From Pseudomonas sp. B21-015 (GTDB lineage Bacteria > Pseudomonadota > Gammaproteobacteria > Pseudomonadales > Pseudomonadaceae): a stretch of DNA of 64,000 nucleotides. The notes beneath the pieces are model-generated. The model was not told where the DNA came from and made no database searches. It saw nothing but the letters and a program-made list of their open reading frames with translations. This document shows, in pieces, positions 7,987 to 63,106 of the stretch. The translations under genes were made by a program, and so were the position numbers. The DNA is taken from the NCBI RefSeq assembly GCF_024749285.1, contig NZ_CP087196.1, positions 1,612,001 through 1,676,000 of the forward strand, given 5' to 3'. Every line of letters begins with the position of its first letter. Within the stretch, counting starts at the first letter, position 1.

Positions 7987-8011
7987 GGGCTACTTGGTGA
8001 GGTAGAACGGG

Positions 8012-8251
8012 TCAGTGACGAGGGGCGGGTTTGCCGTGTTTGACACGCAGCGGTTCGAGCAGCTCCGACAAGCCGTTGTGGTCGATTTCCTGCATCAAGG
8101 CCAGCAAACCGCCCAGTTCACCGTGAGGGAAACCTTCGCGGGCGAACCAGTTCAGGTACTGGCCGGGCAGGTCAGCGATGATGCGGCCCTTGTATTTGCC
8201 GAAGGGCATTTCACGGGTAATCAACAGTTCGAGCTTTTCGGGATTCATCAT
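8012..8251 (-). CDS. DUF3820 family protein
   Basis: 79-residue small cytoplasmic protein. Seen: MPFGKYKGRIIADLPGQYLNWFAREGFPHGELG, the hallmark of DUF3820, sometimes labelled putative quorum-sensing-regulated virulence factor. An open frame extends to 8290, but that start lacks a ribosome site, and the MMNPEKLEL start at 8251 (or 8248) fits the family better. Its biochemical role is unknown. Confidence 0.75.
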   Translation of the reverse strand: MMNPEKLELLITREMPFGKYKGRIIADLPGQYLNWFAREGFPHGELGGLLALMQEIDHNGLSELLEPLRVKHGKPAPRH

Positions 8252-8451
8252 CAGTCGTCTTGATTCAAACAGTCTGGAAAATACAGGCATTCTGCATGCA
8301 GGCCAAATGACAGATCATGCAAAAGAAGCGGATACAGATTTCGCCTTGAAAACTAACTTATTGAAATATAAGTAAAAAGTAATCAATTCAAAGCTGGCAT
8401 GGCGGGTGCAACGCCTTATTGCATCTTTCATCAACCGTAAGGAATTGAAAA

Positions 8452-8919
8452 ATGACCAACATCAACAAAGAAGCGATCTCTGTACTCAACGACCTGATTG
8501 AAACCAGCAAAGACGGTCAGGAAGGGTTCAAGACTTGCGCTGAAGACATCAAGCATCCAGAACTCAAAACCCTGTTCGTTCAGCGCTCCAGCGACTGCGC
8601 CACTGCCGCTGCCGAGTTACAGGCTATGGTGCGTTCCCTGGGCGGTGATCCGGAAACCTCCACCAGTGTCAGTGGCGATCTGCACCGTCGCTGGGTCGAC
8701 GTGAAGGCGATGTTCACCGGCAAGGATGAAGAAGCAGTGCTGAACGAAGCCGAACGCGGTGAAGACCATGCGCTGAAGGCTTACAAAAAAGCGCTGGAGA
8801 AAATCAACAAGGACAACCTGGTGGGCATTCGTGACATCGTTGAACGCCAGTACCACGGCGTGCAACGCAACCACGATCAGGTGAAAGCCCTGCGCAACCA
8901 GGCTCGCGCACGCTCGTAA
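8452..8919 (+). CDS. PA2169-type four-helix-bundle protein
   Basis: 155-residue all-helical, ferritin-like protein of the PA2169/DUF2383 family. Seen: the N-terminal SVLNDLIETSKDGQEGFKTC and the acidic EAERGEDHALKAYKKAL helix. Upstream is an A+T-rich promoter-like stretch and a TAAGGAA ribosome site. The family is associated with stress or stationary-phase functions in pseudomonads, but its reaction is not established. Confidence 0.85.
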   Translation: MTNINKEAISVLNDLIETSKDGQEGFKTCAEDIKHPELKTLFVQRSSDCATAAAELQAMVRSLGGDPETSTSVSGDLHRRWVDVKAMFTGKDEEAVLNEAERGEDHALKAYKKALEKINKDNLVGIRDIVERQYHGVQRNHDQVKALRNQARARS

Positions 8920-8925
8920 GTTCGA

Positions 8926-9061
8926 CCTGTGGCGAGGGAGCTTGCTCCCGTTGGGGGGCGCAGCGCCCCCTAAATCAAACACCGCGTTGGATCTGATCAA
9001 GCGCGGTGACAGGTTTACGACTGCTGCGCAGCCGAACGGGAGCAAGCTCCCTCGCCACAGG
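8926..9061. repeat. Paired REP element (GAGGGAGCTTGCTCCC type)
   Basis: Outer arms CCTGTGGCGAGGGAGCTTGC and its reverse complement (GCAAGCTCCCTCGCCACAGG) bracket about 95 bases that include a second inverted repeat, GGGGGGCGCAGCGCCCCC. It is a different REP family from the GGGCTTGCTCGCGA copies elsewhere in the window. Confidence 0.85.
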
Positions 9062-9091
9062 CAAGGCCTCTCATCACAAGGGAGCGATGAA

Positions 9092-9562
9092 TCAGCCGAT
9101 GCTGATCGCCGGCAACGTCGGCAACGTCACGGTCTGTTGCTTGCGCGGCGCCAGAATCTCCGCCTCGCCATCCACCACCAACTCATCGCGCTGGTTGAAC
9201 ACCCGAGTGGCGATACGCACACGAAACTTCGGCAGTTTCTCGAGGATCTCCAGGCGTACGGTCAGCGTGTCGCCAATCTTTACCGGTTTCTGGAAGCTCA
9301 TCTGCTGACCGATATAAATAGTCCCTGGCCCAGGCAACTCGCAAGCCACCGCCGCGCTGATCAACGCGCCGCTGAACATGCCGTGGGCGATACGCTCCTT
9401 GAACATGGAGGCAGCGGCGAATTCGGCGTCCAGGTGCACCGGGTTATGGTCACCGGACATCGCGGCGAACAACTGAATGTCGCGCTCTTCGACGGTTTTG
9501 CTGTAGCTGGCGGTCTGGCCGACTTCGAGGGCTTCGTAAGGGGTGTTGGTAACCTGGGTCAT
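9092..9562 (-). CDS. MaoC-type (R)-enoyl-CoA hydratase (PhaJ4-like)
   Basis: 156-residue hot-dog-fold hydratase. Seen: the hydratase-2 signature AMSGDHNPVHLDAEFAAAS with catalytic Asp and His, then AHGMFSGALISA. Such enzymes make (R)-3-hydroxyacyl-CoA from enoyl-CoA, linking beta-oxidation to polyhydroxyalkanoates. The start MTQVTNTPYEAL at 9562 has AGGAA upstream; the longer frame to 9598 does not fit the family. Next to a lipase-like gene and fadD2-fadD1, matching the PA3302-PA3299 order of P. aeruginosa. Confidence 0.87.
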   Translation of the reverse strand: MTQVTNTPYEALEVGQTASYSKTVEERDIQLFAAMSGDHNPVHLDAEFAAASMFKERIAHGMFSGALISAAVACELPGPGTIYIGQQMSFQKPVKIGDTLTVRLEILEKLPKFRVRIATRVFNQRDELVVDGEAEILAPRKQQTVTLPTLPAISIG

Positions 9563-9605
9563 CTGTCTCGATTCCTGTGACGAATTAAATAAATCCACAA
9601 AAAAA

Positions 9606-10550
9606 CTATTCGGCTCTGGGGGGCCGGCGGTTGCTCAAGGCTTGGGCGATCCAGTTCAGCACATCGGCAGTCACTTCGTCGCGGTTGCTCTCGTTGAACA
9701 GTTCATGCCGGGCCTGCGGGTAAATAGTCAGCTGCAGGCTCTGGCAGCCAGCGTCGCGCAGGGCGTGGGCCAGATCTATCAGACGTTTGCCTTCGCTCAC
9801 CGGATCACATTCGCCACCGATCACCAGCAGCGGCAGGCCCGGATCGATCTGGGCGAGATTGGACGCTTTGCTGATTTGCTGCAAGCCGCCGAGCAAATCG
9901 ATCCACAGTTGATTGGTGCAGCGAAAGCCGCAGAGCGGGTCGCTGGCGTACTTGTCGACTTCCGCCGGGTCGCGGCTCAGCCAGTCGAACGAGGTGCGCG
10001 CCGGTTTGAACTTCTTGTTGAACGAACCGAACGACAGCCATTCGATCAGCGCACTGCGACCCTTGGGGCCCTGACGCAGGCGTTCGAGGCGAGCAATCTG
10101 CCGCGCTGCACGATAGAGCGCCACGGGCTGGAAGTTCGAACCGCTGAGAATGGCCCCGTGCAGGCTGGCGCTGTGGTGCAGCAAGTAAGCCTGGGCGATG
10201 TAGCTGCCCATGCTGTGGCCCAACAGTACGATCGGAATGCCGGGATGCTGTTGGCCGATGTGTTGGTTAAGGCTGGCCAGGTCGCCGACCACTTTGCACC
10301 AGCCATCGTCGTCGTCGAAATGCCCCAGAGTGCCGTTTTCGGCGGTTTTGCCATGTCCACGCAAGTCCGGTGCGTAAACGCCGTAGTCCTGTTCGCAGAA
10401 CTTTTCTGCCAGACGAGCGTAGCGACCGCTGTGTTCCGCCATGCCGTGGGCCAGCAGGATCACGGCCTTCAACGGTGCAGCCGGCAGCCACTGGTTGACG
10501 AAGAGGCGGCTGTGGTCACTCGCGGTCAGCCAGAAAGTGTCGTGGATCAT
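9606..10550 (-). CDS. Alpha/beta hydrolase (lysophospholipase-like)
   Basis: 314-residue serine hydrolase of the monoacylglycerol lipase/lysophospholipase type. Seen: LLAHGMAEHSGRY (oxyanion region), LRGHGKTAENGTL, and the nucleophile elbow GHSMGSYIAQ. No signal peptide, so cytoplasmic. It lies 43 bases before the hydratase on the same strand, probably co-transcribed, and diverges from fadD2. It may supply fatty acids to the ligases, which is inferred from context. Confidence 0.85.
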   Translation of the reverse strand: MIHDTFWLTASDHSRLFVNQWLPAAPLKAVILLAHGMAEHSGRYARLAEKFCEQDYGVYAPDLRGHGKTAENGTLGHFDDDDGWCKVVGDLASLNQHIGQQHPGIPIVLLGHSMGSYIAQAYLLHHSASLHGAILSGSNFQPVALYRAARQIARLERLRQGPKGRSALIEWLSFGSFNKKFKPARTSFDWLSRDPAEVDKYASDPLCGFRCTNQLWIDLLGGLQQISKASNLAQIDPGLPLLVIGGECDPVSEGKRLIDLAHALRDAGCQSLQLTIYPQARHELFNESNRDEVTADVLNWIAQALSNRRPPRAE

Positions 10551-49516: not shown

Positions 49517-49605
49517 TTAGACCATATCGATTCTTGGACGCTGCTTCGCCATAATCCGTGCCACGATTTCACGAGTAGACGCTCGCTTCTTTCAAGGATG
49601 TTTTG

Positions 49606-50790
49606 ATGTTCAAAGGATTGTTACGCCTGGCGCCAGTCGCCACGCTGTTACTCATGCTGTGTTCCACTGCTCATGCCGAGGACGGGAGACGAGTGTTCAC
49701 CGGCACCCTGGGCAAGATGCCGATCGTGCTGGAACTCAACACCAACCAGCCGGACGAAGTCACCGGCCGCTACTTCTATGAGAAATACCATCGCGACCTG
49801 GAACTGAGCGGCTCGCTGCAAGAAAAGACCCTGACGTTAACCGAAGGCAACAACCGCTACAGCGAAGACAAACCCCAGCCAACCCTGAAGTTGCAAGAAA
49901 CGGCCAACGGCTGGCAAGGCGAATGGAAAGGCCCCAAGGGCAAAGTTCTGCAAATGCAATTGACCGAGGCCAAGATCCCGGCACCGGCTGCAGACGTCTT
50001 GCCCTTCATCGCCGCGCTGCCGAAAAGCGACCCTTACGAATATCTGCGCTTGCAAGGCTTGAAACTCAAACCGGGCAAGAAAGAGTCCTTCATGGGCTAC
50101 GACCTGCAATGGTGGACGGAGCCCGCGTCCGGTCTCTCCATGTTCAGCATCGAGTCCGGCTACCCGAAAGCTGACCAGCAGCGGATCAATCAGCAATTGT
50201 TGGAGCGGCTCTGGAGCGAAGTCATCAACTACCACGGCTGCTTGCTGGGAGGTAGGGAATTTGCCGAGTTCGACCAAGGTGTCGCCCCCCAATTCCTATC
50301 GCCCGATGTGGTCAGCCTGAACATCTCCACCGGCTACAGCTGCGGCGGCGCTCACCCGGATTTTGGCAATTCGCCGATTAACCTCGACGTTCACACCGGT
50401 CATAGCCTGTCGCTGGAAGACGTGCTGTGGATTGGCCAAGGCAAGCCGCTGCTGCATGCCGACCGCTACGGCGCTGGCGATACATCCTTGACCGAGGAAG
50501 AGAGCAACGCACGATTCACCTATCAGCGCGAAGTGTTCGTACCATGGCTGATCAAGCAATTCAGCGCGCTGTACCCCGATGAAATGCAGAAGCCGGCGGA
50601 CGAGGAAGGCTGCGACTACACCGACGAAAGCGTTTGGGGTTATTCCAACTGGCACTTCACCGCAAAAGGCCTGTACCTGGGACCGTACTTCGCCCGCATA
50701 CAACGCAATTGCGATGATCCGGGCTGGTCAGTGCTGCCGTACGCCGTGGTCAAGCAACATCCCGGCGGCGTGGCTGTGCAACTTCCCTGA
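49606..50790 (+). CDS. Secreted tandem-paralogue protein, copy 1
   Basis: 394-residue exported protein. Signal peptide MFKGLLRLAPVATLLLMLCS ends near AHA. The N-terminal domain (VFTGTLGKMPIVLELNTNQPDEVTGRYFYEKYHRDLELSG) resembles beta-rich domains of unknown function; the C-terminal half (VVSLNISTGYSCGGAHPDFG, LDVHTGHSLSLEDVL) resembles the DUF3298/RsiV-type fold. Four or more Cys are conserved among the copies. AAGGA precedes the ATG at 49606. First of three tandem copies, and the most divergent. Confidence 0.83.
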   Translation: MFKGLLRLAPVATLLLMLCSTAHAEDGRRVFTGTLGKMPIVLELNTNQPDEVTGRYFYEKYHRDLELSGSLQEKTLTLTEGNNRYSEDKPQPTLKLQETANGWQGEWKGPKGKVLQMQLTEAKIPAPAADVLPFIAALPKSDPYEYLRLQGLKLKPGKKESFMGYDLQWWTEPASGLSMFSIESGYPKADQQRINQQLLERLWSEVINYHGCLLGGREFAEFDQGVAPQFLSPDVVSLNISTGYSCGGAHPDFGNSPINLDVHTGHSLSLEDVLWIGQGKPLLHADRYGAGDTSLTEEESNARFTYQREVFVPWLIKQFSALYPDEMQKPADEEGCDYTDESVWGYSNWHFTAKGLYLGPYFARIQRNCDDPGWSVLPYAVVKQHPGGVAVQLP

Positions 50791-50889
50791 GGTTGGGTTA
50801 CATAAGTATTGCGGACTTGGTGCGTATGGCTTCAAGCAGCACCTGGTCATCCCCCACGAGCATGTGCTCGTTTATACAAGGATGATGTT

Positions 50890-52050
50890 ATGTTCAAAGG
50901 ACTGTTTCGTCTGACCGGCATTGTCGCGCTGGCGTGCACAACTTTTTCTACCGCGCTGTGGGCTGAAAACGGTACTCAGGTCTACACCGGAACCGTGGGC
51001 AAATCGCCGATTGTGCTGGAGGTGAACGCCAACGGCGGTGAGGGGCGGTACTTTTATCAGAAGTACCGCAAGGACTTGGTGCTCACCGGCAAAAAAGAAG
51101 GCGAAATCCTGGTCCTTGACGAAGGAAACCAGCGGTATGGTGAGGATACAGCCCTCCCGCAAATTCGCTTGCAACCCAAGCCCAACGGCTGGTCCGGCGA
51201 ATGGACCAGCCCTCAGGGCAAAGTCCTCAAGGTCGAGTTGCAGCAAGCCACTCTCCCGCCAGTGTCCGCCGACACCTTGCCTTATCTCGCAGCACTCCAT
51301 GAAAACTCGCCTTACGAATATTTGCGGCTTCAAGGCATGAAGCTCAAACCAGGAAAGACTGAAACGTTCAACGGCTACTCACTGCAATGGTGGAGCGAGC
51401 CGCAAACAAAGACGACGCTGTTTGAAGTCGTTTCGGGCTACGCCACTGAAGAGCGTCAGCGCATCAATCAACAGTTGATGGGGCGCTTGTGGCAGGAAGT
51501 GGTGGGTTATTACGGATGTCTCGCTGGCGGTGGCGTGAACTTCTACTACCAAACGATCAAACCGGTGTTGATGACGCCTTCGGTCATCAGCGTGAACATT
51601 GGTACTGAGTACAACTGTGGCGGCGCTTACCCGGATCAGAACGATGTACCGCTTAACCTCGATGCCAAGACCGGCAAGCCCTTGGTGCTTGAGGATATTC
51701 TTTGGATAGGGGAGGGCAAACCCCTGCATTACGAAGAACTCTATGGAGAAAGCGACCAATCACCTGACACGTTCACCGCGTTTTCTGCGTACCGTTCCAA
51801 CGAGCTCGCGCCATGGCTGGTGGCGCAGCTCAGTAAGCTTTATCCAGATCAAATGACCAGTGATGAGGATTGTGCCTACAGTGACGAAGACCGGTGGCGT
51901 TACCTGTCTTGGTACTTCACTGAAAACGGTATCAAGCTAGAGCCATCATTTGCTCATGTAGACGCTTCATGTGGGCATGTTGAATGGAGCGTCCTGCCTT
52001 ACAACCTCATCAAACAACACCCCGGTGGTGTAGCGGTGCAACTGCCTTGA
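50890..52050 (+). CDS. Secreted tandem-paralogue protein, copy 2
   Basis: 386-residue exported protein closely related to its neighbours. Signal peptide MFKGLFRLTGIVALACTTFS, then VYTGTVGKSPIVLEVNANGGEGRYFYQKYRKDLVL, and a C-terminal region with VISVNIGTEYNCGGAYPDQN and the end LIKQHPGGVAVQLP identical to copy 1. The ribosome-site block ACAAGGATGAT is also shared with copy 3, so the duplicated unit includes upstream sequence. Likely periplasmic; role unknown. Confidence 0.83.
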   Translation: MFKGLFRLTGIVALACTTFSTALWAENGTQVYTGTVGKSPIVLEVNANGGEGRYFYQKYRKDLVLTGKKEGEILVLDEGNQRYGEDTALPQIRLQPKPNGWSGEWTSPQGKVLKVELQQATLPPVSADTLPYLAALHENSPYEYLRLQGMKLKPGKTETFNGYSLQWWSEPQTKTTLFEVVSGYATEERQRINQQLMGRLWQEVVGYYGCLAGGGVNFYYQTIKPVLMTPSVISVNIGTEYNCGGAYPDQNDVPLNLDAKTGKPLVLEDILWIGEGKPLHYEELYGESDQSPDTFTAFSAYRSNELAPWLVAQLSKLYPDQMTSDEDCAYSDEDRWRYLSWYFTENGIKLEPSFAHVDASCGHVEWSVLPYNLIKQHPGGVAVQLP

Positions 52051-52128
52051 GGCTGGGTTACGTATGGCTTTCAAGCCGCACCTGGCTATCTCCCGCGAGC
52101 ACGCGTTCATTTATACAAGGATGATTTG

Positions 52129-53310
52129 ATGTTCAAGGGGCTGTGGCGTTTGATCGGCATTGTTGTGCTGGTGTGCTCAACCTTTTCTACTGCGCTGGGG
52201 GCCGACGGTGGCAAGCAGGTTTACATCGGAACGTTAGGCCAATCGCCGATAGTGTTGGAGATGAACACCCATAACCCTGATGGCGTGAGTGGGCGTTACT
52301 TCTACCAAAAATACCGCAAGGACTTAATGCTCAGTGGCAGTAAGGACGGCGAGACGCTGGTAGTCGATGAGGGTAACGATAGCGATCATGAGGACACGCC
52401 GCGCCCGAAAATTCGTCTTCGGCCCACGCCCAATGGCTTGTCTGGGGAATGGACCAGCCCCCAAGGCAAAGCCCTGAAGATAGAATTACTGCAAGCAAAA
52501 CTACCACCGGTTCCTGCTGGTACTTTGCCTTATCTCGCTATGCTTCATGACGTGACGCCTTATGAGTACTTGCGCCTGCAAGGTATGAAACTCAAACAAG
52601 GCAAGACCGAAACCTTCATGGGCTACACACTGCAATGGTGGAGCGAGCCGCAATCCAGGATGTCGATGTTTGAAGTGGTCTCGGGTTACACCGCCGAAGA
52701 GCAGCAACGCATCAATCAGCAGTTGATGGGGCGTTTGTGGCAGCAAGTCGTCATCTTCCATGATTGCCTCACCCAGGTCGGCATGAACACCTATAGCCAA
52801 ACGGCCGATCCGTTGTGGATGTCACCCTCGGTGATCAGCGTGAACATCAGGGCCGAGTCCAACTGTGGCGGGTCTTATTCCGATGAGGACGACATGCCAT
52901 TCAATCTCGAAGCCAAGACCGGCAAGACCCTGGCGCTGGAAGATGTGCTTTGGATAGGACGGGGCGAGCCGAAGCATTACGAACTAAGCGAGCTCGACGA
53001 CAAGGCGTCCTATGATGCTTATCTCGCCTATTCCGAATACCGCACCAAAGAATTGGCACCGTGGCTGGTGGGTCAATTGCGTACGCTCTATCCCGAGCAA
53101 GTCACCAGCTCGACTGATCGAAATGATGATTGCGTCTACGGTGAAGAGCAGTCGTGGATCTTCCCTTCCTGGTATTTCACCGACAAAGGCATCAAGTTGC
53201 TGCCTGCATTTGCCCACAACCAAGCCATGTGCCGAAACGTGGAATGGAGCATCCTGCCGTACAACCTGATCAAACAACACGCTGGGCATGTGGCATTGAA
53301 GTTGCCCTGA
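52129..53310 (+). CDS. Secreted tandem-paralogue protein, copy 3
   Basis: 393-residue exported protein. Signal peptide MFKGLWRLIGIVVLVCSTFS, then VYIGTLGQSPIVLEMNTHNPDGVSGRYFYQKYRKDLML and, near the end, VISVNIRAESNCGGSYSDED. Closer to copy 2 than to copy 1, which suggests two rounds of duplication. Intact. Its 3' end runs into a fragment of a neighbouring gene (53318). Confidence 0.83.
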   Translation: MFKGLWRLIGIVVLVCSTFSTALGADGGKQVYIGTLGQSPIVLEMNTHNPDGVSGRYFYQKYRKDLMLSGSKDGETLVVDEGNDSDHEDTPRPKIRLRPTPNGLSGEWTSPQGKALKIELLQAKLPPVPAGTLPYLAMLHDVTPYEYLRLQGMKLKQGKTETFMGYTLQWWSEPQSRMSMFEVVSGYTAEEQQRINQQLMGRLWQQVVIFHDCLTQVGMNTYSQTADPLWMSPSVISVNIRAESNCGGSYSDEDDMPFNLEAKTGKTLALEDVLWIGRGEPKHYELSELDDKASYDAYLAYSEYRTKELAPWLVGQLRTLYPEQVTSSTDRNDDCVYGEEQSWIFPSWYFTDKGIKLLPAFAHNQAMCRNVEWSILPYNLIKQHAGHVALKLP

Positions 53311-53317
53311 CGCTGAA

Positions 53318-53435
53318 TTACTTATCCGCCAACCCCGGCGCTTCCCGAATAATGAAGTGATCCAGGTTCTCGATATTGGCACTGAACACCCCGAACGTCT
53401 GTTCGGGGTTTTTCATGCTCGGCACCTGCTTCAAC
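53318..53435 (-). pseudogene. 3'-end duplicate of the 55.5-kb zinc-finger-like gene
   Basis: The - strand codes for KQVPSMKNPEQTFGVFSANI, ENLDHFIIREAPGLADK, stop, nearly identical to the last 37 residues of the gene at 55543-56532, with roughly seven or eight base differences in 115. The similarity ends abruptly at about 53435. Both copies face the same way, making a direct repeat 2.2 kb apart that brackets the diguanylate cyclase and response regulator genes. Confidence 0.88.
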
Positions 53436-54431: not shown

Positions 54432-55445
54432 TCAATTCATCAAGTAGGCGAGTTTGTGGGTCAACCGCTCGATTGAGTCTTCCGTGAACAGCAACAATAG
54501 GTCGAAACGAATGTCATGCCCTTCCAGGCTATAGCTGATTTCCACCGCCAGGGTCTTTTTCCAGCGCTTGTGATTGACCCGGATCAGCTCATCGATGGCC
54601 GCGTGCTGGCCGAGGATCTGCGGGTGACCTTGAGAAAACGCCACATCGATCTGTTCGGCAATGCTGCTCAGGCAAGCACCGATCAGAACGCTGGAGAGGT
54701 CCAGCAGCATTTCCAGGTCTGAATAGTCGGCGCTCTGGCGTTGCATCAATTGCGCGATGTCAGCGATTTCCGAGTCGTGAAACATCAGCAGGGCTTCGCC
54801 GGCAATGCCACTGCCGATAAAACCCTGGCAGATGGCCGTGAGTTGCTTGCGACTGCTGGCATCGGTCAGCGCCATGTGCAACTCGCCGACCTCGAGGATG
54901 TTCACGTTCGGTACCGGCAACTGCACAAAGACGCCCAACACCTTGGCGATCAGGGCGGCCGCCCGGCCGATGGCAACGTTGACCGTTTCACGGAACACAT
55001 CGTGAAAACTGATGACGGTGTTCGCCGCCGGACGACTCCCCAGCGACGCCTGGCCAGATTCCGTCAGTAGCCCTAGCTGACTGAGTGTCTGGCGCAGCTC
55101 GTGTTCGTCGAAAGGCTTTTTCAGAAACGCCAGCGCACCCAGCTCACGCACGCGACGCACCGCTTCTTCCTGAACGTCACCAGAGATCACGATGACGTGC
55201 GCCTTCAATCCTTCGGCGCGCAAGGCGCTCAACACCTGATAACCATCCATCTTCGGCATGGTCAGGTCGAGCAGCACCACCTGCCCCAACCCCCGGCGTA
55301 TGGCCTCCATTGCCTGATGACCATTACCGGCCTCGGTGACCGACACCGGCCAATCCGCCGGCAGTGCCCGTAATACTTGCTTACGAGCCATGCTGGAGTC
55401 GTCACAGACCAGTAGGGGAATCACTGACACAGATAAGCCACTCAT
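54432..55445 (-). CDS. Response regulator with CheC/CheX-like domain
   Basis: 337-residue protein. An N-terminal receiver domain has the acidic pair D15-D16, phospho-acceptor D60 (LLDLTMP) and K110. The C-terminal part is a CheC/CheX-like fold: the first site DVFRETVN (D149-xxx-E153-xx-N156) is intact, and the second is degenerate. It may act as a phosphatase or adaptor tied to the downstream cyclase. MSGLSVSVIPLLVCDDS at 55445 is the likely start; the frame opens 8 codons earlier. Confidence 0.85.
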   Translation of the reverse strand: MSGLSVSVIPLLVCDDSSMARKQVLRALPADWPVSVTEAGNGHQAMEAIRRGLGQVVLLDLTMPKMDGYQVLSALRAEGLKAHVIVISGDVQEEAVRRVRELGALAFLKKPFDEHELRQTLSQLGLLTESGQASLGSRPAANTVISFHDVFRETVNVAIGRAAALIAKVLGVFVQLPVPNVNILEVGELHMALTDASSRKQLTAICQGFIGSGIAGEALLMFHDSEIADIAQLMQRQSADYSDLEMLLDLSSVLIGACLSSIAEQIDVAFSQGHPQILGQHAAIDELIRVNHKRWKKTLAVEISYSLEGHDIRFDLLLLFTEDSIERLTHKLAYLMN

Positions 55446-55542
55446 CAGGGAAAATACTAGCGGCATCATGTCACAAGCTTACAAAGGCCACCTAACAAAC
55501 GAGGTCTTACTAAGGACGACGTCCGGCAGGGTGGGCGAATGA

Positions 55543-56532
55543 CTATTTACTCGCCAACCCCGGCGCTTCACGAATGATGAAGTGGTCCAGGTTCTCGATA
55601 TTGGCACTGAACACGCCGAACGTCTGCTCGGGGTTTTTCTTGCTCGGCACCTGCTTCAACTCCGGCGTCACGCCATAAAAGAAGCAATACAACTGCGCGT
55701 CACTGTCGACGGCGTGCTTGATCTCTTCCAGAAACGCTTTGCGCTTGCGGTAGTTGTCGATCAGCTTCTTGCTCAGATAAACGTTGACCGAATAAGGCTT
55801 CTTCTTCGCCTCGCCCGGTTGCTTGACCCAGACCTTTTGTTCGAAATCGATGCGAAAGCTCTGCGTGTAATCCTTGATCTCCTTGATCTTGCCCCAGTAA
55901 ATCAGCCCCTTGTTGTCCTGCAGGTATTCGATCTTCTTGAAGAACGACCCATAAGGCGCCGTGTGCTCGCCAATCTTCAGCGGCATACGCTTGAGCAGAT
56001 CCTTGTCCTCGAAGTTCGACACAAAACACTCCACCGGATGGGCGAAGACACTGGTCTTGTCCGGCGCCGACTCCCGGCTCGGATGCTCGACGTTACTGGC
56101 CGCTGAAGTGGGTGTTGGGTCATCCCGCATGACATCCGCCGCCACCGCCGGGTTGGACGGCTTGCGCACATACTCACGTCGAGTCAGCAACAACTCCGAC
56201 GGGAAATGCTCCTCCCGACTGTCATCCGATTCCGCCCCGTCCGCCTCCAGGCCCGACGCCGGCGTTTTCAGGCTGACATAAGGACAACCCTCGACATGCC
56301 GGGTGCTGGGGATGTTCTTGAAGTGCGGCGTGCGTACGTAATTCACATTCTTGGCGTTGAATGTTCCCAGCACATTCGCCGCATCAAAGGCCGCCCTGCA
56401 ATTGTCATTGGGGCACTGGAAATGCTCCTTGGCGGAATCGAACTCCATCGTCTCGTCGAAATTCAAATCACGCACGTCATAGATCGACAGCTTGTCGTCG
56501 AGGCTGAGGCAGTAGGCGAGGTCGAATTTCAT
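55543..56532 (-). CDS. Zinc-finger-like hypothetical protein
   Basis: 329-residue soluble protein of unknown function. Near the N-terminus C40-x4-C45 and H70-x8-H79-x3-C83 (HFQCPNDNCRAAFDA, TPHFKNIPSTRHVEGCPY) look like a zinc site similar to that of CoiA-like proteins. A low-complexity linker follows (100-165), then a Lys/Tyr-rich C-terminal domain (SFFKKIEYLQDNKGLIYWGKI). No nuclease motif is clear. Its 3' end is duplicated at 53318. It lies next to vsr and may belong to the defence island. Confidence 0.75.
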   Translation of the reverse strand: MKFDLAYCLSLDDKLSIYDVRDLNFDETMEFDSAKEHFQCPNDNCRAAFDAANVLGTFNAKNVNYVRTPHFKNIPSTRHVEGCPYVSLKTPASGLEADGAESDDSREEHFPSELLLTRREYVRKPSNPAVAADVMRDDPTPTSAASNVEHPSRESAPDKTSVFAHPVECFVSNFEDKDLLKRMPLKIGEHTAPYGSFFKKIEYLQDNKGLIYWGKIKEIKDYTQSFRIDFEQKVWVKQPGEAKKKPYSVNVYLSKKLIDNYRKRKAFLEEIKHAVDSDAQLYCFFYGVTPELKQVPSKKNPEQTFGVFSANIENLDHFIIREAPGLASK

Positions 56533-56563
56533 GGTGGGGCTCTAAGTCCTTTAGGTAAGGCGT

Positions 56564-56980
56564 CTATTCGAGGTGGGTGGTGAGCATTTGAATTTTTTCT
56601 TTGATGCGGTCGAGGTCTTTTAACTCGCACTCCCAAATCACATCCACCCGCCAATCCATCAGCTTTAATCGGTTGATGCATCGCTCGTCACGGCTAGCGT
56701 TAGTTCCGAACTTCGTTGCCCAGTAATCGGGGCGGGTTTTAGGCGTCGATGTGTATTTGCACCCGTGTTGATGCCAAAAACAGCCATGAACAAAAAGACA
56801 TAGCCGATATTTTGGGAACACTAGATCGGGTGTGCCTGGCAGATCTCGCCGATGAAGTCGAAACCTCAGCCCCATCGCGTGGCACAAGGACCGAACGACC
56901 ATCTCTGGTTTCGTATTCTTGCTCTTTACCTGCGCCATGATCTTGGATCGCTGTTCTGGTGTGACTTTATCAGCGCACAT
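56564..56980 (-). CDS. vsr: Very-short-patch-repair endonuclease
   Basis: 138-residue Vsr endonuclease that nicks T:G mismatches arising from deaminated 5-methylcytosine. Seen: D52 in LPGTPDLVFPK, H65, C67, H70, H72 and C74 in LFVHGCFWHQHGCKY, matching the catalytic Asp/His and structural zinc residues of the family. Its partner is normally a cytosine-5 methyltransferase, here the gene at 60592, separated by four kilobases. AGAGGG lies upstream. Confidence 0.93.
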   Translation of the reverse strand: MCADKVTPEQRSKIMAQVKSKNTKPEMVVRSLCHAMGLRFRLHRRDLPGTPDLVFPKYRLCLFVHGCFWHQHGCKYTSTPKTRPDYWATKFGTNASRDERCINRLKLMDWRVDVIWECELKDLDRIKEKIQMLTTHLE

Positions 56981-57074
56981 TCAGATTTGCCCTCTCGACT
57001 GCCATGCATCTTGGGAGAGCATGCTAACGGTGTCACCGTTAGGTCAAGGCCAGTCTGGAAAACCGCTGGATAGC

Positions 57075-57788
57075 CTACTCACGAATGAGTCGGCCGATCT
57101 TCAAATACAGTGACTCGGTGTAGTCGTCTTTATCGGTCGCATGGTGACAGCGCTGATGGCAATTCGGGCACAGCGCAACAGCATTGGTGGTGCGGTCCGA
57201 ACCTTTTTTCGCGAGAGGTTTGACGTGGTGGACTTCCAGATAAGGTAGTCCGAGTTTTTGAAACGGAGCGGGCCGATCACAGCCTTCACAATGGCCTTCG
57301 GCTACATTTCGAACCCAGGCTCTGACTTCGGGATCACGCACGTACACCGAACCTGAATTTGGAGCGCGTTTCGGTTTCAAAATGCCCTTTGGCGGTTGCT
57401 TCATCTTTTGCTTTTGAAGCGCAACGGCGCGGCGTTCTAGCGTGTCATCATCGGCGGTAGGAATGGATTCGTCGCCGGCGAGAATACCTCGGCTGGCAAG
57501 GACGTCGCGGATTGAGTTTTCGACATTCGAGCCGACATGAGGTGCTGACTTGTAGCCATTGATGCGCTGCTTGCCCATCCGCTCCAGCACAGTTGAGATG
57601 TTAAGCATCCGGAACTCGACGGAGCTTTCGGTGCGCCCAGCCAACGCGCCCGCTCGCAGAGTTCGATTTTCGTGGGCCTTGTTGAGTTTCTGCCCGTTCT
57701 CTTCGAGCTTCAGCATCTTCAGATAAGCGTCAACTGCTGCTTCGAGCTCAGTGACACTCCAATCGGTGTTGCTGGTTCCAATATCCAT
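57075..57788 (-). CDS. HNH endonuclease
   Basis: 237-residue protein. An N-terminal helical domain (about 8-100, WSVTELEAAVDAYLKM, AGRTESSVEFRMLNIS) common in HNH restriction-type enzymes is followed by a zinc HNH nuclease: C167-x2-C170, EVHHVKPLAKKGSDRTTNAVALCPNCH with H187, H188, N202, C207 and C210. All expected residues are present. It is the likely nuclease of the adjacent methyltransferase system, although it might also be a modification-dependent enzyme. Confidence 0.87.
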   Translation of the reverse strand: MDIGTSNTDWSVTELEAAVDAYLKMLKLEENGQKLNKAHENRTLRAGALAGRTESSVEFRMLNISTVLERMGKQRINGYKSAPHVGSNVENSIRDVLASRGILAGDESIPTADDDTLERRAVALQKQKMKQPPKGILKPKRAPNSGSVYVRDPEVRAWVRNVAEGHCEGCDRPAPFQKLGLPYLEVHHVKPLAKKGSDRTTNAVALCPNCHQRCHHATDKDDYTESLYLKIGRLIRE

Positions 57789-57796
57789 AAGATCGC

Positions 57797-57816
57797 CGAG
57801 GGTTGAAAACCCTCGG
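57797..57816. terminator. Hairpin between BRO and HNH genes
   Basis: CCGAGGGTTGAAAACCCTCGG-type stem (seven pairs, GAAA-like loop) with no T-run. It may be a transcript end for the BRO gene or a simple hairpin. Confidence 0.45.
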
Positions 57817-57909
57817 ACGATACTGAGTGGCCACTACGAATGTCTACGAAATTTCCTACAGAATTAACCGACGCATCGCTCAGTCGATGCCTACGAAAGA
57901 GTAATGGCA

Positions 57910-58488
57910 CTAACCCACCGAGTGCCTGGAAAACTGAAATATATCCAGTACTTTTCGCCACCAAGGCTTAACCGTCGGTACTCGCCGCCGCGTACGATTT
58001 GGCAGCAGATAAGGCATGTCACGCAATCGAATCCAGCCTTCATCTTGCCAATGCAACAGACTCAACGACATTTCTGGCCAATCCAACAAACTTAACATCG
58101 GTCGGTCAGCATTTTTTGACTGCACCGCATCGCGCAATGTTGGGACCACTTGATGGGTCAACCACTCGCGCAATAACCGATTACCCGGTGCGTAGTGGTA
58201 GACCAGCAACGCATAGGCTCCGGATTCGCTGAGCATTAGTCGCTTTTCTGATTTCCCATAGTATGTAATCAATAACGTATGTCGCTGATCCTCATCCAGT
58301 TTGCTGACAACGCGATCACTCAGATGGAATCCCATTAAGCGACCTAGATCTCGGGCGCAGAACCAAGGTTGGTTTTCCACAAGAAGCGCATGTAGGTGCA
58401 GATTTTGGCGTAGAAAAATTGTTGAAATGAAAGGTTCAGGGCCGACCTCCAAAAGTGGAAGGTGGTCATGCGGATTTAATGTGGGCAT
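57910..58488 (-). CDS. BRO-N domain protein (antirepressor-like)
   Basis: 192-residue protein with an N-terminal BRO domain: FLRQNLHLHALLVENQPWFCARDLGRLMGF and LMLSESGAYALLVYHYAPGNRLLREWLTHQVVPTLR. Such domains bind DNA in phage antirepressors. The C-terminal 70 residues do not match a known partner. Here it lies in a defence island without other phage genes; it may control island expression. The region upstream to 58815 is non-coding. Confidence 0.87.
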   Translation of the reverse strand: MPTLNPHDHLPLLEVGPEPFISTIFLRQNLHLHALLVENQPWFCARDLGRLMGFHLSDRVVSKLDEDQRHTLLITYYGKSEKRLMLSESGAYALLVYHYAPGNRLLREWLTHQVVPTLRDAVQSKNADRPMLSLLDWPEMSLSLLHWQDEGWIRLRDMPYLLPNRTRRRVPTVKPWWRKVLDIFQFSRHSVG

Positions 58489-58815
58489 TTCTATTACCTC
58501 TACAGATAAATTTGTAGGAGGCCAGCACCCGACGTAGAGAATCTAAGAAATCCCAACAAGCAGTTTTTTCACCCACGTTTTGCGCATGTCTTTTAACGGC
58601 AGCACAAGTTGTATGTGTGAGGAACTCAGCTTTCTACGTTGGGCGTTTCTTAGGCACCTGCGAATAGCGTAGGGAAGCCTGGATACGTCGTCAATCGAGA
58701 AAAATCAGTATCTTATGTGAGAGGTTTCTAGTGTTTTTGATAGCTATTAAACGGCGTGTTAAAAAATCAAAAGGGGGAGGGTGGTATGCCCCTCCCCCAG
58801 ACAAGAAATAACGTA
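58489..58815. other. A+T-rich non-coding gap inside island
   Basis: This 327-base gap carries the BRO gene promoter region and, at its right end, the ATPase terminator (58773). I found no open frame with a ribosome site and no clear repeat. The composition is as A+T-rich as the ATPase gene. Confidence 0.55.
58773..58798 (-). terminator. Terminator of the ATPase-methyltransferase unit
   Basis: GGGGGAGG and CCTCCCCC form an eight-pair stem; on the - strand the hairpin is followed by TTTTGATTTTTT. It lies 18 bases past the ATPase stop. Confidence 0.85.
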
Positions 58816-60579
58816 TTAGTTTTCTAAGAGTGTCTGTAGTGCTTTGTAGGCATTGTTTCTTATTTGGTTTACTTCAGAGTTGTCCGTTAGTACGCCATCT
58901 TCATGCACAATTCCGTTTATAGTGGACAGGTCTTTTTTGAATTTTCCTAATGACAGACTGGCAGCCCGTCTATGATCATTCGGAAGATTTTCTGTGTTTT
59001 GCAGTAACCACGTAATCATCTTCTGAAGATTGGGTGAGTAATCTTTTTTTTGCTTGTCAGTAAACGGTCTTCCAGCAAAGTCTTGCTCTGAAAAATATGA
59101 TTCTTTGATTGTGTTGTAAAATTTATGTCTTATTGCAAACTCGCGTAGCGCACACTCGAATAAGACCCGTAACAGCACAATTGCCGTATATGGATGTTGT
59201 TTTATGGAAATCTCTTTCGCTTCCTGCAGTAGGGAGGTGGTGCGTGGCGATGTTGAAATTGTATTGATGTCATAGACGAGGTAGTCCATGTCATTTGTAT
59301 GTAAGTTGTTTTTTTCATTGTTGGTCGTAACGCCAGCGCCTACTCCAGCGGCAGGTTTCCAATCATTGCTTTTCGGCTTAGAGTTCTGAGAGCCGGACAA
59401 TGCACTAGGGTCTTTTGGTCGGATAATAGGAGTAGGGTTGGATGCTGGTGCAGCGGCTTTAGTCTTTCTGAGTTTACGGTTGTCGGTTCTGTAGCTGTCA
59501 GCAAGGCCTTTCAGTATGGGTAAGCTTTCTTCGTGCGCTTTATTGTTACTGTTTATGCCGGTTTTTTTACTGTCCCATGGTAATAAAGATGGGTCTTCAC
59601 TTACGTAGTAAGCCCATCCTAGAAACCCATGATATTCATTGTGCCAACTAGTCGTCCAACCAGTGATTTTGGATTTATCTGCAACTAAAATTATTCTATC
59701 ATTGCAGACAATATACCATCCATACTCTTTAGTTAGTTCGGGTATTCCAGATTTTAACTCCTGGTAGTCATTATCGACACTTCTGATTCGGTAGTCCTGG
59801 TGTAGGCCTGATTCCATATATATATTTACACGCGATTGAGAGAATAGCGTTCTCTCCCGCTTTCTTAAAAAAACCGGATCGCGTATTTCAGGGCCAAAGG
59901 TGCCAATTGGAACGTCGTTGATCAGGATTTTTAAGTTTTTACTTGTGAATATTCCATAACGCTTTCGAATTTCTTCTGTAGTGGATTTAAGCCAAATGGC
60001 AGAGCCCAAATCAGAATAAACCTCACTGTTTATGTCGCTTATTTTTATAAGGTTGAATTTTTTATTTGTTGTTTTTAGTTTAATTGCTTTAATTTCTAAG
60101 GTGTTCGCTACGGCTTTTCTAACTTCGCTTTCGGAAAATGTCAGAGAGAATTGGTCAGTTCCGTCGTCTGTTGTAAGGTGAACCCTTGCCCCGAGTTTGA
60201 AGATTGCTCGGTTTAAGCCTACGCCATAGTGTCCGATCCCGTAAGGGTGTTGAGAACGGCTTCCTATCGTGAAGGTCTTATTGGAAAGGGTTTGTTCGTC
60301 AATACCAGAACAATTATCCAGAATGGTGACGTTTTTATTGTCTATTGAAACTCTGATTTCATAACCGTTGTACGATGCGGGAAGTCCAAATTTATCTTTT
60401 TTTGTATCCGTCTTTAAAAGCGAGTTTCGTGCGGCATCTATCGAGTTGTCGATAAGGTCGTAGATGCACTCGATCGTCGTCACGTCAGAAGTTAGTCCTT
60501 TGATTACATAGTCAGGGTCGGACGAAAAGCTTACGCGGACTTCACCGGGCTCATTGACTTCATTGTCTATTTTTTTCAT
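58816..60579 (-). CDS. GHKL ATPase (MutL/MORC-like)
   Basis: 587-residue protein with an N-terminal Bergerat ATP-binding fold. N-box CIYDLIDNSIDAA (D41, N45, D48; the usual catalytic Glu position is Asp), G1 motif DNCSGID, and G2 GIGHYGVG (114-121). A transducer-like middle follows, then a Ser/Pro/Lys-rich linker (370-430) and a helical C-terminal domain (430-587, SIKQHPYTAIVLLRVLFECALREFA). It lies 12 bases after the methyltransferase gene. In related systems such ATPases assist methyl-directed restriction. Confidence 0.85.
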   Translation of the reverse strand: MKKIDNEVNEPGEVRVSFSSDPDYVIKGLTSDVTTIECIYDLIDNSIDAARNSLLKTDTKKDKFGLPASYNGYEIRVSIDNKNVTILDNCSGIDEQTLSNKTFTIGSRSQHPYGIGHYGVGLNRAIFKLGARVHLTTDDGTDQFSLTFSESEVRKAVANTLEIKAIKLKTTNKKFNLIKISDINSEVYSDLGSAIWLKSTTEEIRKRYGIFTSKNLKILINDVPIGTFGPEIRDPVFLRKRERTLFSQSRVNIYMESGLHQDYRIRSVDNDYQELKSGIPELTKEYGWYIVCNDRIILVADKSKITGWTTSWHNEYHGFLGWAYYVSEDPSLLPWDSKKTGINSNNKAHEESLPILKGLADSYRTDNRKLRKTKAAAPASNPTPIIRPKDPSALSGSQNSKPKSNDWKPAAGVGAGVTTNNEKNNLHTNDMDYLVYDINTISTSPRTTSLLQEAKEISIKQHPYTAIVLLRVLFECALREFAIRHKFYNTIKESYFSEQDFAGRPFTDKQKKDYSPNLQKMITWLLQNTENLPNDHRRAASLSLGKFKKDLSTINGIVHEDGVLTDNSEVNQIRNNAYKALQTLLEN

Positions 60580-60591
60580 TTTATAATTCCG

Positions 60592-61728
60592 TCAGGCGGC
60601 GAGTTTTTGTTCGAGTTTTTTTCGAATGGCTGATAGTAGGCGCGCAGACATTACCGGGGATACGCTATTTCCGATCATTCTAAACGAATGCCAGATAGTT
60701 GGATGAAATAGAAACCAGTCCGGAAACCCTTGCAGTCGAGCTGCTTCTCTTACAGTAATAACTCTAGGCTCTATCGGATGTATCGGCCTCATTGCTTGAT
60801 AGCTTCCCTTGTCGCTCCCAGTTCCCGCTCTAAGAGTCGGACAAAAGCCTTTTGGGTTCAGTCTAGGATATCGACTAATAGGCTCAATTTTTCCTTGTGT
60901 TGTATTCAGGAATCGGTCAATCACTATGTCGGTATGTCTGGTCCCCATTAGCCCAGAAACCTTGCCGTTACGTAGGTTTTCAATAGATATTTTGGCACCG
61001 AGCCCTGCTGGAGGTAGTTGTCTTAAATACTTTGCATAGTCTGAAATTTGATTTGATTCTGGGTATAGGGCCCACGTGTAGTCTGATTTTGACGCGGGCT
61101 TTGACAATATAGGAGAAGGCAAATCGTAAATTGCTTGCTCCACAGTCGTAGGTGGTCGATTTATTTCTTCTAATAACGATAGAAGCTCTATTTTTTCAAC
61201 ATGAGACGGGTCGTAGCCAATAATTACAATCCTCTTGCGGGAAGTTGCCGCGCCGCAGTCAAGAGCATTTATTCGCACAGGGCCCAGGACTATGTAGTTT
61301 TTTGGGACGGTTTCTAATCCCGCATAAAGGATTTCTCGATTTCCATCATCAAGTATTCCCTCCACATTTTCCATGATGAAGAAGTATGGTTTTAGCTCTA
61401 TGACTTGGCGAAAAAAATGTCCGACTAAGTTGTTGCGAGGATCATTGGGCTGCCTCCGTCCTATCCTACTAAACCCCTGACAAGGTGGACCACCCACTAT
61501 CCCGTCGGGACGTGTATCGCCGATTATTTCTTTCCAGGATTTTCGGTCAAGTAGCCCTACGTCGGCCTGAATAGTTTTGGTATTGGGGAAGTTTAAGCGA
61601 TAGGCTGATTGAAGGTCTGAATCAATGTCGACAGCCGCTAGCGAGTGGAAACCGGCTAGCTCCGCGCCCAATCCAAGTCCGCCGCAGCCGCAGAATAAAT
61701 CTATTATGGTTGGTTTTGTCGACAGCAT
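60592..61728 (-). CDS. dcm: DNA (cytosine-5-)-methyltransferase
   Basis: 378-residue C5 methyltransferase. Motif I IDLFCGCGGLGLG (SAM), motif IV GGPPCQGFSRIG with catalytic C83, motif VI MENVEGIL, motif VIII SRKRIVIIG, a target-recognition region about 200-310, and motifs IX/X RVITVREAARLQGFPDWF, RMIGNSVSPVMS. All needed motifs are intact. It heads an A+T-rich two-gene unit with the GHKL ATPase and has Vsr nearby. The recognition sequence cannot be read from the protein. Confidence 0.93.
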   Translation of the reverse strand: MLSTKPTIIDLFCGCGGLGLGAELAGFHSLAAVDIDSDLQSAYRLNFPNTKTIQADVGLLDRKSWKEIIGDTRPDGIVGGPPCQGFSRIGRRQPNDPRNNLVGHFFRQVIELKPYFFIMENVEGILDDGNREILYAGLETVPKNYIVLGPVRINALDCGAATSRKRIVIIGYDPSHVEKIELLSLLEEINRPPTTVEQAIYDLPSPILSKPASKSDYTWALYPESNQISDYAKYLRQLPPAGLGAKISIENLRNGKVSGLMGTRHTDIVIDRFLNTTQGKIEPISRYPRLNPKGFCPTLRAGTGSDKGSYQAMRPIHPIEPRVITVREAARLQGFPDWFLFHPTIWHSFRMIGNSVSPVMSARLLSAIRKKLEQKLAA

Positions 61729-61806
61729 GAATGTCCTTAGTTAGACCTTCGCTTGTTTAGAGTTTTTCTAAAGAAAGCTTTTTGAATATTAAAATCTAGA
61801 TGTGCA

Positions 61807-61831
61807 AAGCCTCGCAATAGCGAGGCTTTTT
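61807..61831. terminator. Terminator hairpin between nrdB and the island
   Basis: AAGCCTCGC and GCGAGGCTT enclose a four-base loop, with T-rich sequence on the + strand and a short T-run on the - strand, 25 bases past the nrdB stop. Confidence 0.75.
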
Positions 61832-61855
61832 ATTTGGGGAAGGTTCAGCTAGGAG

Positions 61856-63106
61856 TCAATCCCAGCTCAAAGCCCCACCAGTCTGATACTCAATAACCCG
61901 AGTCTCAAAGAAATTCTTCTCTTTCTTCAAGTCCATAATTTCACTCATCCAAGGGAACGGGTTAGTCGTCCCTGGATACTCTTCCTTCAAACCAATCTGC
62001 GACAGACGACGGTTAGCGATGAACTTCAGATAATCCTCCATCATCGCCGCATTCATGCCCAACACGCCGCGTGGCATGGTATCCCGAGCGTATTCAATCT
62101 CCAGCTGAGTCCCCTGCAGAATCATCTGGCTCGCTTCTTCCTTCATTTCAGCGTCCCACAAATGCGGGTTTTCGATTTTGATCTGGTTGATCACGTCGAT
62201 GCCGAAGTTCAGGTGCATGGATTCGTCGCGCAGGATGTACTGGAACTGCTCGGCGACGCCGGTCATTTTGTTGCGGCGGCCCATGGAGAGGATTTGGGTG
62301 AAGCCGCAGTAGAAGAAGATGCCTTCCAGAACGCAGTAGTAGGCGATCAGGTTGCGCAGCAGCTCTTTGTCGGTTTCGACGGTGCCGGTTTCGAACTTCG
62401 GATCGGAGATCGAACGGGTGTATTTCAGGCCCCAGGTGGCTTTTTTCGCGACCGATGGGATCTCGTGGTACATGTTGAAGATTTCGCCTTCATCCATGGC
62501 CAACGATTCGATGCAGTACTGGTAGGCGTGGGTGTGGATCGCCTCTTCGAAGGCCTGGCGCAGGATGTACTGGCGGCATTCCGGGTTGGTGATCAGGCGG
62601 TACACGGCCAGGACCAGGTTGTTGGCAACCAGGGAGTCGGCGGTGGAGAAGAAGCCGAGGTTGCGCATCACGATGCGGCGCTCGTCGTCGGTCAGGCCTT
62701 CCGGGTCTTTCCAGAGGGCGATGTCGGCGGTCATGTTGACTTCTTGCGGCATCCAGTGGTTTGCGCAACCGTCCAGGTACTTCTGCCAAGCCCAGTCGTA
62801 TTTGAATGGCACGAGCTGGTTGAGGTCGGCGCGGCAGTTGATCATGCGCTTTTCATCGACGGCTACACGGGCAGAGGCGCCTTCCAGTTCGGCGAGGCCT
62901 TCGGCGACGTCGAGGGAATCCAGGGCAGCCTTGGCGCGGGCGATCGCGGCGGAGTCCGTCGCGGTCACGGCGCGGGCCTCTTGAGCGGCGGCACCACCGG
63001 CGCTGTCGAGGCGGTCCATGTTGGCTTCAGAAGCGTGGCCGGCATTGGCGCCTTTTACAGCGACTTCGCCGTCATCTTCTTTGTCGAATTCGTCCCAGCT
63101 CAGCAT
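61856..63106 (-). CDS. nrdB: Ribonucleotide reductase beta subunit
   Basis: 416-residue class Ia R2 subunit carrying the diiron-tyrosyl radical. The iron ligands appear in [16 protein letters not shown] and [20 protein letters not shown]. The radical-transfer tail ends in GGALSWD. An N-terminal extension of about 80 residues ([18 protein letters not shown] then an Ala-rich stretch) precedes the core, common in pseudomonads. The alpha subunit gene must lie elsewhere. A long leader precedes the gene. Confidence 0.95.

Follow-up and report, generated by a model that had tools for sequence, protein, structure and literature searches.

A 64,000-nucleotide stretch of the chromosome of Pseudomonas sp. 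B21-015 (NZ_CP087196.1, positions 1,612,001 to 1,676,000; here called the window), taken from a complete genome of 6.59 Mb, carries a C5 cytosine DNA methylase gene, dcm, followed by a gene for a MORC-like GHKL ATPase with a HEPN-like C-terminal domain. Apart from a terminator, these two genes are the sole content of a foreign segment some 3.15 kb long (about 58,703-61,850), which lies between nrdB and a resident BRO-HNH block. The pair makes up a compact and mobile unit that probably blocks phage. A preliminary description of this locus had joined the pair with BRO, HNH, Vsr, and a 329-residue protein in a defense island of six genes. All six open reading frames (ORFs) are indeed open at the positions then assigned, all on the minus strand, and Pfam agrees with the identities given to the methylase (E 1.5e-53), GHKL (HATPase_c_3), BRO (Bro-N), HNH, and Vsr proteins. 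The features of the insert are as follows.

60592 to 61728, minus strand: dcm, C5 cytosine DNA methyltransferase, first gene of the pair (Pfam PF00145, E 1.5e-53; PCQ and ENV motifs read directly)
58816 to 60579, minus strand: MORC-like GHKL-S5 ATPase with HEPN-like C-terminal domain (Pfam HATPase_c_3, E 4e-11; AlphaFold; structural matches; MORC motif at residues 287-297)
58773 to 58798, minus strand: terminator-like hairpin after the GHKL gene (terminator scan)
58703 to 61850, limits approximate: inserted segment with only dcm, the GHKL gene, and the terminator (homology breaks against 12 relatives; low G+C)

The dcm-GHKL pair is an insert next to nrdB

The limits of the insert were read by comparing the window with 12 loci, picked by hand from the 56 relatives' loci described below. 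On the nrdB side, homology to the 12 relatives ends at 61,850-61,860, which is the nrdB stop codon. It resumes at 58,660-58,702 in the 10 compared relatives that have BRO and at the 329-residue gene in L069 and L071, which lack BRO; in L069, the two borders are 159 bases apart. The junctions are approximate, because the relatives carry some bases of their own between the breakpoints. The four 1-kb steps spanning 58,001-62,000 have a G+C content of 0.415-0.452, and the steps beside them have 0.535-0.592. Of the six genes, only the pair is therefore A+T-rich, since the G+C content over 55,001-58,000 is 0.535-0.555. Twelve bases (60580-60591) separate the dcm stop from the GHKL start, in keeping with the tight pairing described earlier. 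The terminator proposed for the pair was also recovered, as a strong stem, with G-C in 8 of its 9 pairs and T's behind it, directly 3' of the GHKL gene (58798-58773); the scan overall gave 7 terminator-like sites against a shuffle mean of 7.0, i.e., no excess. An integration site marked by a tRNA or by visible repeats was rejected: the 64-kb window contains no tRNA, and the sole repeat in a search of 56,900-62,000 was a 21-base sequence present twice within the GHKL gene.

A search with the GHKL protein gave 22 loci from a genome collection and 10 from a viral collection (4 of the 10 full length). Seventeen distinct full-length loci were retained after counting a single P. tremae contig once (L094, L105, and L122), adding G097 (L093), and excluding L123 and L124, whose C-terminal parts differ and which were also kept out of the C-terminal counts given below. 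In all 17 loci, dcm lies directly upstream of the GHKL gene, which bears out the earlier view of a defense-type pair with a MORC-like ATPase. The same arrangement is found in L123 and L124, where the match covers the ATPase part only; the partial matches L095, L096, L109-L117, and L125-L128 are laid out differently, with dcm not seen, located further downstream, or encoded on the opposite strand. Hosts of the full-type pair include Plastoroseomonas, Akkermansiaceae, Caulobacter, Methylobacterium, and Collimonas. GHKL relatives are present in 6 of 298 genomes, three of which (G000, G056, and G097) have the full-length protein with dcm directly upstream, and dcm was found at E 1e-60 in 6 of 119 genomes of the genus.

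Vsr, previously proposed as a companion, recurs near the pair: it lies less than 1 kb away in 6 of the 17 loci (L101, L103, L104, L107, L108, and L121) and farther away in L097 (1.9 kb) and L098 (2.3 kb). No other nuclease recurs among the neighbors within 3.5 kb. BRO and HNH were seen together near the pair at only one of the 17 loci, L097 (Pseudomonas sp. 6D_7.1_Bac1), at the same Pseudomonas spot, where the order nrdB-dcm-GHKL-BRO-HNH-Vsr matches that of the window apart from the 329-residue gene. Identities to the window proteins are 83% for dcm, 77% for GHKL, 80% for BRO, 66% for HNH, and 50% for Vsr. Companions could be missed in L102, L104, and L120, because these contigs end within about 1 kb of the pair. 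In L097, the GHKL frame (7992-9738) is broken into two overlapping pieces, by mutation or sequencing error.

Judged by look, the pair adjoins related ORFs resembling a phage repressor in P. tremae (L094/L105) and L119, and an integrase-like ORF is common to L119 and L124. In L098 and L099, it is adjoined by a shorter GHKL protein and a partner of 326-359 residues. This second GHKL type (about 460-490 residues, with a partner of about 325-360) is found in L006, L095, and L096 as well; the partner in L096 is PF20553, and dcm is on the opposite strand in L095. By look, L096 resembles a DISARM class 1 locus. The filamentous Pseudomonas phage PfAC20 also carries a relative.

Domain composition of the two proteins

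A profile built from the methylase and three relatives aligns over almost its full length with PDB 3g7u (E 8e-143). For the GHKL protein (587 residues), AlphaFold predicts a GHKL-S5 part at about 13-375, a low-confidence linker at 378-430, and a HEPN-like domain at about 432-587. The ATP-binding residues Asp41, Asp44, Asn45, Asp48, Asp88, Asn89, Gly92, Gly116, Gly119, Gly121, and Arg124 are invariant (16/16 and 18/18 aligned), and the MORC S5 motif GhXhhpXXRhl is present in 18 of 18 aligned rows, at residues 287-297 in the window. This motif is not distinctive of the subfamily, because L095, the one group II GHKL protein tested, has it too. By its GHKL motifs, S5 motif, and structural matches, the ATPase part is MORC-like.

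The fold search with the whole model covered residues 1-375 only; therefore, the C-terminal domain was folded alone. Structural matches of the predicted model give it a HEPN helical fold, and a His is conserved in 16 of 16 relatives. The HEPN R-x4-6-H motif is absent from the window protein; among the 16, L108 alone has an Arg suitably spaced from the His. Among the PADLOC profiles, the domain matches PD-Lambda-5_A alone at E 0.001; matches to this profile begin at a residue position of at least 376 of 587, and the N-terminal part is unmatched. Ymh (PF09509) was not listed at E ≤10 for 8 of the 16 C-terminal domains or for the whole protein, in a test where HMMER filters drop most weak matches. 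An effector built into the GHKL protein as this HEPN-like domain is more likely than an effector role for HNH.

BRO, HNH, and the 329-residue gene occur independently of the pair

The other features of the locus are as follows.

61856 to 63106, minus strand: nrdB, left border of the hotspot (NCBIfam, E 6e-216)
58489 to 58702, minus strand: noncoding BRO leader of type A, 25-base core at 58634-58658, resident and outside the pair (conservation)
57910 to 58488, minus strand: BRO-N protein, hotspot resident (Pfam Bro-N, E 7e-10; 33 of 56 relatives)
57075 to 57788, minus strand: McrA-like HNH protein with a PDC-S36-like front part, hotspot resident (Pfam HNH, E 6e-11; PDB 6ghc; PADLOC)
56564 to 56980, minus strand: Vsr mismatch endonuclease, probable methylase helper (Pfam Vsr, E 1e-32; TIGR00632, E 5e-44; near the pair in 6 of 17)
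55543 to 56532, minus strand: 329-residue protein, from a gene conserved on Pseudomonas chromosomes that forms the hotspot's right border and is outside the pair (58 of 119 genomes)

A protein search found the 329-residue protein in 58 of the 119 genus genomes, the window's own included. We mapped the neighborhood of its gene in 56 rather than all 57 relatives, because G016, where the gene is at a contig end, was excluded; these loci were fetched through the 329-residue gene, which is present in all of them by construction. Of the 56 loci, 33 have BRO, 22 have HNH (counted where at least 80% of the protein is covered), 9 have Vsr, and none has the GHKL protein. BRO and HNH are both present in 16 loci and are then always adjacent (gaps of 105-137). 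Only L053 has a C5 methylase aligned over 80% of the window dcm (24% identity), and the distant methylases (23-24% at the protein level) of L053, L059, L060, L064, and L086 are parts of other systems. HNH itself was detected in 25 of the 119 genomes, including the window's own, with E values no higher than 3.4e-48; one copy has an internal stop.

Since BRO, HNH, and the 329-residue gene are present in relatives without the pair, they are independent of it. The six-gene unit therefore fails on co-occurrence, by the refutation test that had been proposed with it: HNH and BRO come and go independently of the dcm-GHKL pair, and the 329-residue gene is common. A regulatory role for BRO within such a unit lost its footing in the same way, with BRO in 33 of 56 loci without the pair and near the pair in 1 of 17. 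Nor is the 329-residue protein an added part, being the product of a common chromosomal gene, and its description as zinc-finger-like found no match in Pfam (best E 0.18, chance level), NCBIfam, PHROG, or PDB.

The HNH protein, once cast as the effector, matches PDB 6ghc (‘5-methylcytosine-specific restriction enzyme A') at E 4e-32 over residues 48-234 and PDB 5zmm at E 2e-12; its PADLOC matches are mREase_IV (3e-32) and PDC-S36 (5e-24). The HNH region (167-216) aligns with EcoKMcrA (6ghc), as do, weakly, about 120 residues before it, whereas the N-terminal 47 residues of the HNH protein are unaligned. As a relative of McrA, which depends on 5-methylcytosine (5mC), it is an unlikely partner for a 5mC methylase, and it is normally found without the pair; we judged it unlikely to be the cognate restriction enzyme. 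Standing beside a C5 methylase, an HNH protein of a 5mC-dependent family would have to spare the host's own mark, and its specificity may do so. More plausibly, it is a separate defense rather than the effector of the pair.

The PDC-S36-like front domain encoded after BRO is fused to HNH in most relatives having the gene. In L067 (5057-8209, minus strand), it is fused to a KAP-type ATPase in a protein of 1,050 residues, and L054 has an 837-residue protein with the same front. Positions 49603-53310 of the window hold three tandem paralogues of 394-413 residues that look secreted; the two scanned are both without a Pfam family. This family borders the hotspot in 21 of the 56 relatives. The last 117 bases of the 329-residue gene are duplicated (92%) at 53319-53435 and 55544-55660, the duplicate lying beyond a response regulator gene and a GGDEF gene. 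These two genes look inserted, because the downstream family lies within 40 bases of the 329-residue gene in 20 of the 21 relatives where that family is seen.

An nrdB-linked hotspot of defense genes

The interval from nrdB to the 329-residue gene is an insertion and defense hotspot of Pseudomonas. nrdB is visible in 49 of the 56 loci, at 159 to 12,394 bases from the 329-residue gene (median, 4,900), and the defense-type cargo of the relatives lies mainly between nrdB and BRO. From 219 ORFs, we chose 28 cargo proteins to scan against PADLOC models; 18 match a model at E 1e-5 or better, some of the matched profiles being of a broad ATPase or helicase kind, and ten have no match. The cargo of L039 comprises an MzaB-like GHKL protein with a helicase and dcm, clusters that L053 shares. 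Also matched were type II restriction-modification (R-M) parts, PDC-M38, a methyl-directed type II enzyme, a CBASS cyclase, NsnA, PDC-S06, an HEC-04-like ATPase, BstA, a dGTPase, and Gabija. Several relatives (e.g., L074-L076, L079, L083, and L085) carry other genes beyond HNH. We rejected identity with the P. aeruginosa core hotspots cDHS1 and cDHS2, whose borders as given in passages of PMC10250203 differ. Among the papers listed by literature searches, with most subscription papers outside their reach, none described the nrdB site as an integration site or hotspot, and this site, like the BRO leader, is less described in print than the methylase-MORC-HEPN module.

Conserved leader elements precede BRO genes

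We aligned 35 BRO genes with their upstream DNA. One of two conserved noncoding elements precedes 33 of them; L048 and L061 have neither and were left out of the leader alignments. The type B leader is Rfam RF02221, sRNA-Xcc1 (75.8 bits, cut-off 53; e.g., L070 6467-6549). RF02221 occurs at 34 places in 30 of the 119 genomes, none of them the window's genome, and BRO lies directly downstream at all 34. The distance to the BRO start is 18-221 bases at the 19 places checked, with L151 giving a partial match only (98 residues); the other 15 places lie in loci fetched for other reasons. The 25-base motif of type A, the window's leader, is found in 20 of the 119 genomes, against 0 for a backward control. 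BRO follows it in 19, and the twentieth reaches its contig end 82 bases on. Wherever this could be checked, 53 places in all, a leader of either type is followed by BRO.

In each of the three sequence variants of type B, 8-10 pairs can form with the variant's own ribosome-binding region and fewer (4-6) with those of the others. In the type B alignment, 12 cells change on both sides, above all 500 shuffles; the counts of pairs changing on both sides and of pair types do not exceed the shuffles. The type A leader of the window has no Rfam match at gathering scores and only chance-level rows at E ≤5. It shows no covariation, as its arms hardly vary, and its folding energy does not stand out (z -1.16), so its structure is drawn from complementarity. 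A BRO leader would act in cis, by hiding the BRO start site. Passages of published work place sRNA-Xcc1 upstream of symE in Xanthomonas integrons (PMC12444791) and report that in X. campestris it runs at about 100 nt on a Northern blot, whose mapped counterpart is 88 nt by its ends (PMC2996969). No paper joining sRNA-Xcc1 with the BRO family turned up in the literature searched. At least in Pseudomonas, our results suggest a cis leader in what has been described as a trans-acting sRNA.

A putative methylation-gated abortive unit

We give even chances to the proposal that the pair is a methylation-gated abortive unit, i.e., an R-M/abortive infection hybrid of a C5 methylase and a MORC-HEPN effector. 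Sensing of missing methylation, dimerization, a HEPN target, and any phage protection are what we infer. The methylase would mark host DNA at its own motif. Its partner, a candidate DNA clamp of the MORC type (GHKL plus S5) that is driven by ATP and joined through a flexible linker to a HEPN-like effector, would bind invading DNA on which the mark is missing, lost, or altered. ATP would close the clamp as a dimer and bring two HEPN domains together, and these would stop translation or kill the infected cell, an abortive outcome rather than classic restriction. Vsr enzymes repair the T:G mismatches left by 5mC deamination, and Vsr, when present, would serve this purpose here. BRO-HNH and the 329-residue gene are the unit's neighbors, resident at the nrdB-linked landing site. 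A hybrid of the methylase plus MORC-HEPN kind has already been anticipated in print. The fuller proposal, in which a bacterial MORC protein gated by 5mC from its paired methylase is a DNA-sensing clamp, turns on a HEPN-like effector whose active site is nonstandard, and is cargo of an undescribed nrdB-linked hotspot, is tentative, and we hold it somewhat unlikely to be right in every part.

In a classic R-M system, the GHKL protein would instead be a restriction subunit like those of HgiDII and BbrUII, or a DNA looper for a separate nuclease, and its C-terminal domain would only dimerize. Passages of PMC2292703 interpret MORC and paraMORC proteins as R-M components that loop DNA, and the window protein has a weak NCBIfam match to the BbrUII/HgiDII restriction family (NF050001; E 9e-4, residues 74-226). 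This match scores 17.8 bits against a cut-off of 550, however, a Pfam scan recognized no nuclease domain in the protein, and no nuclease gene recurs beside the pair except Vsr (6 of 17), so that we regard a classic system as unlikely. Less likely still is a pair that serves as an addiction-like module or as a cassette for prophage superinfection exclusion, with host defense as a by-product. The repressor-like and integrase-like ORFs and the ten loci from the viral collection speak for this view, but the window site is a chromosomal defense hotspot, and among the other 15 full-length loci no phage-like neighbors of this kind are shared. Such a cassette would be compatible with a methylation-gated abortive unit rather than exclude it. 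A six-gene system with HNH as effector, BRO as regulator, and the 329-residue protein as an added part is very improbable. Its six genes lie on one strand and L097 repeats most of their order at the same spot, yet none of the loci with BRO (33 of 56) or HNH (22 of 56) has the GHKL gene, and the pair is without nearby BRO and HNH in 16 of 17 loci (three of these contigs end within about 1 kb). Moreover, identities within L097 are unequal (50 to 83%), HNH belongs to the 5mC-dependent McrA family, and BRO has a leader of its own. As a conserved unit, the six-gene system was rejected on co-occurrence.

Relation to known systems and significance

Several described systems share parts of this architecture, as far as the relevant passages of each source go. 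The MORC/paraMORC proteins of R-M neighborhoods (Iyer, Abhiman and Aravind 2008, PMC2292703) have the GHKL motifs, the S5 domain, and the MORC-specific S5 motif, with a C5 methylase and sometimes Vsr adjacent; the window insert differs in lacking a superfamily II helicase or nuclease gene and in its HEPN-like C-terminal domain. The paraMORC-HEPN (Ymh) fusions (Anantharaman et al. 2013, PMC3710099) likewise join a GHKL ATPase to a HEPN-type C-terminal domain near R-M genes, whereas the window domain has neither a Pfam Ymh match nor the canonical R-x4-6-H. PD-Lambda-5 (Vassallo et al. 2022, PMC9519451) includes a predicted methyltransferase and is the only PADLOC system whose profile the window C-terminal domain matches, but the front of the window protein is a MORC-like ATPase unmatched by the PD-Lambda-5_A profiles. 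HEF_HK/Response_reg_2 elements (PMC8011034) have an HATPase_c_3 GHKL protein, a C5 methylase upstream, and Vsr and HNH types nearby; in contrast, neither of their domains appeared in the Pfam scan of the window protein, and the insert lacks a response-regulator-like partner. In GHKL-Shedu (VcSduA/paraMORC3, PMC12137116), a GHKL ATPase also carries a C-terminal effector and defense needs an ATPase residue, but that effector is a PD-(D/E)xK nuclease, and the passages on it do not mention a methylase. No paper combining MORC, HEPN, methyltransferase, and anti-phage turned up in the literature searched.

In eukaryotes, MORC proteins take part in silencing methylated DNA. What is known of their bacterial relatives comes mainly from sequence. 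If our proposal is true, two bacterial genes, in an insert without a helicase or nuclease gene, would make methylation sensing by MORC directly testable, and a minimal pair of methylase and MORC-HEPN protein would let E. coli be used to test what MORC senses and what it switches on. The nrdB hotspot, in turn, is a place to look for new Pseudomonas defense systems.

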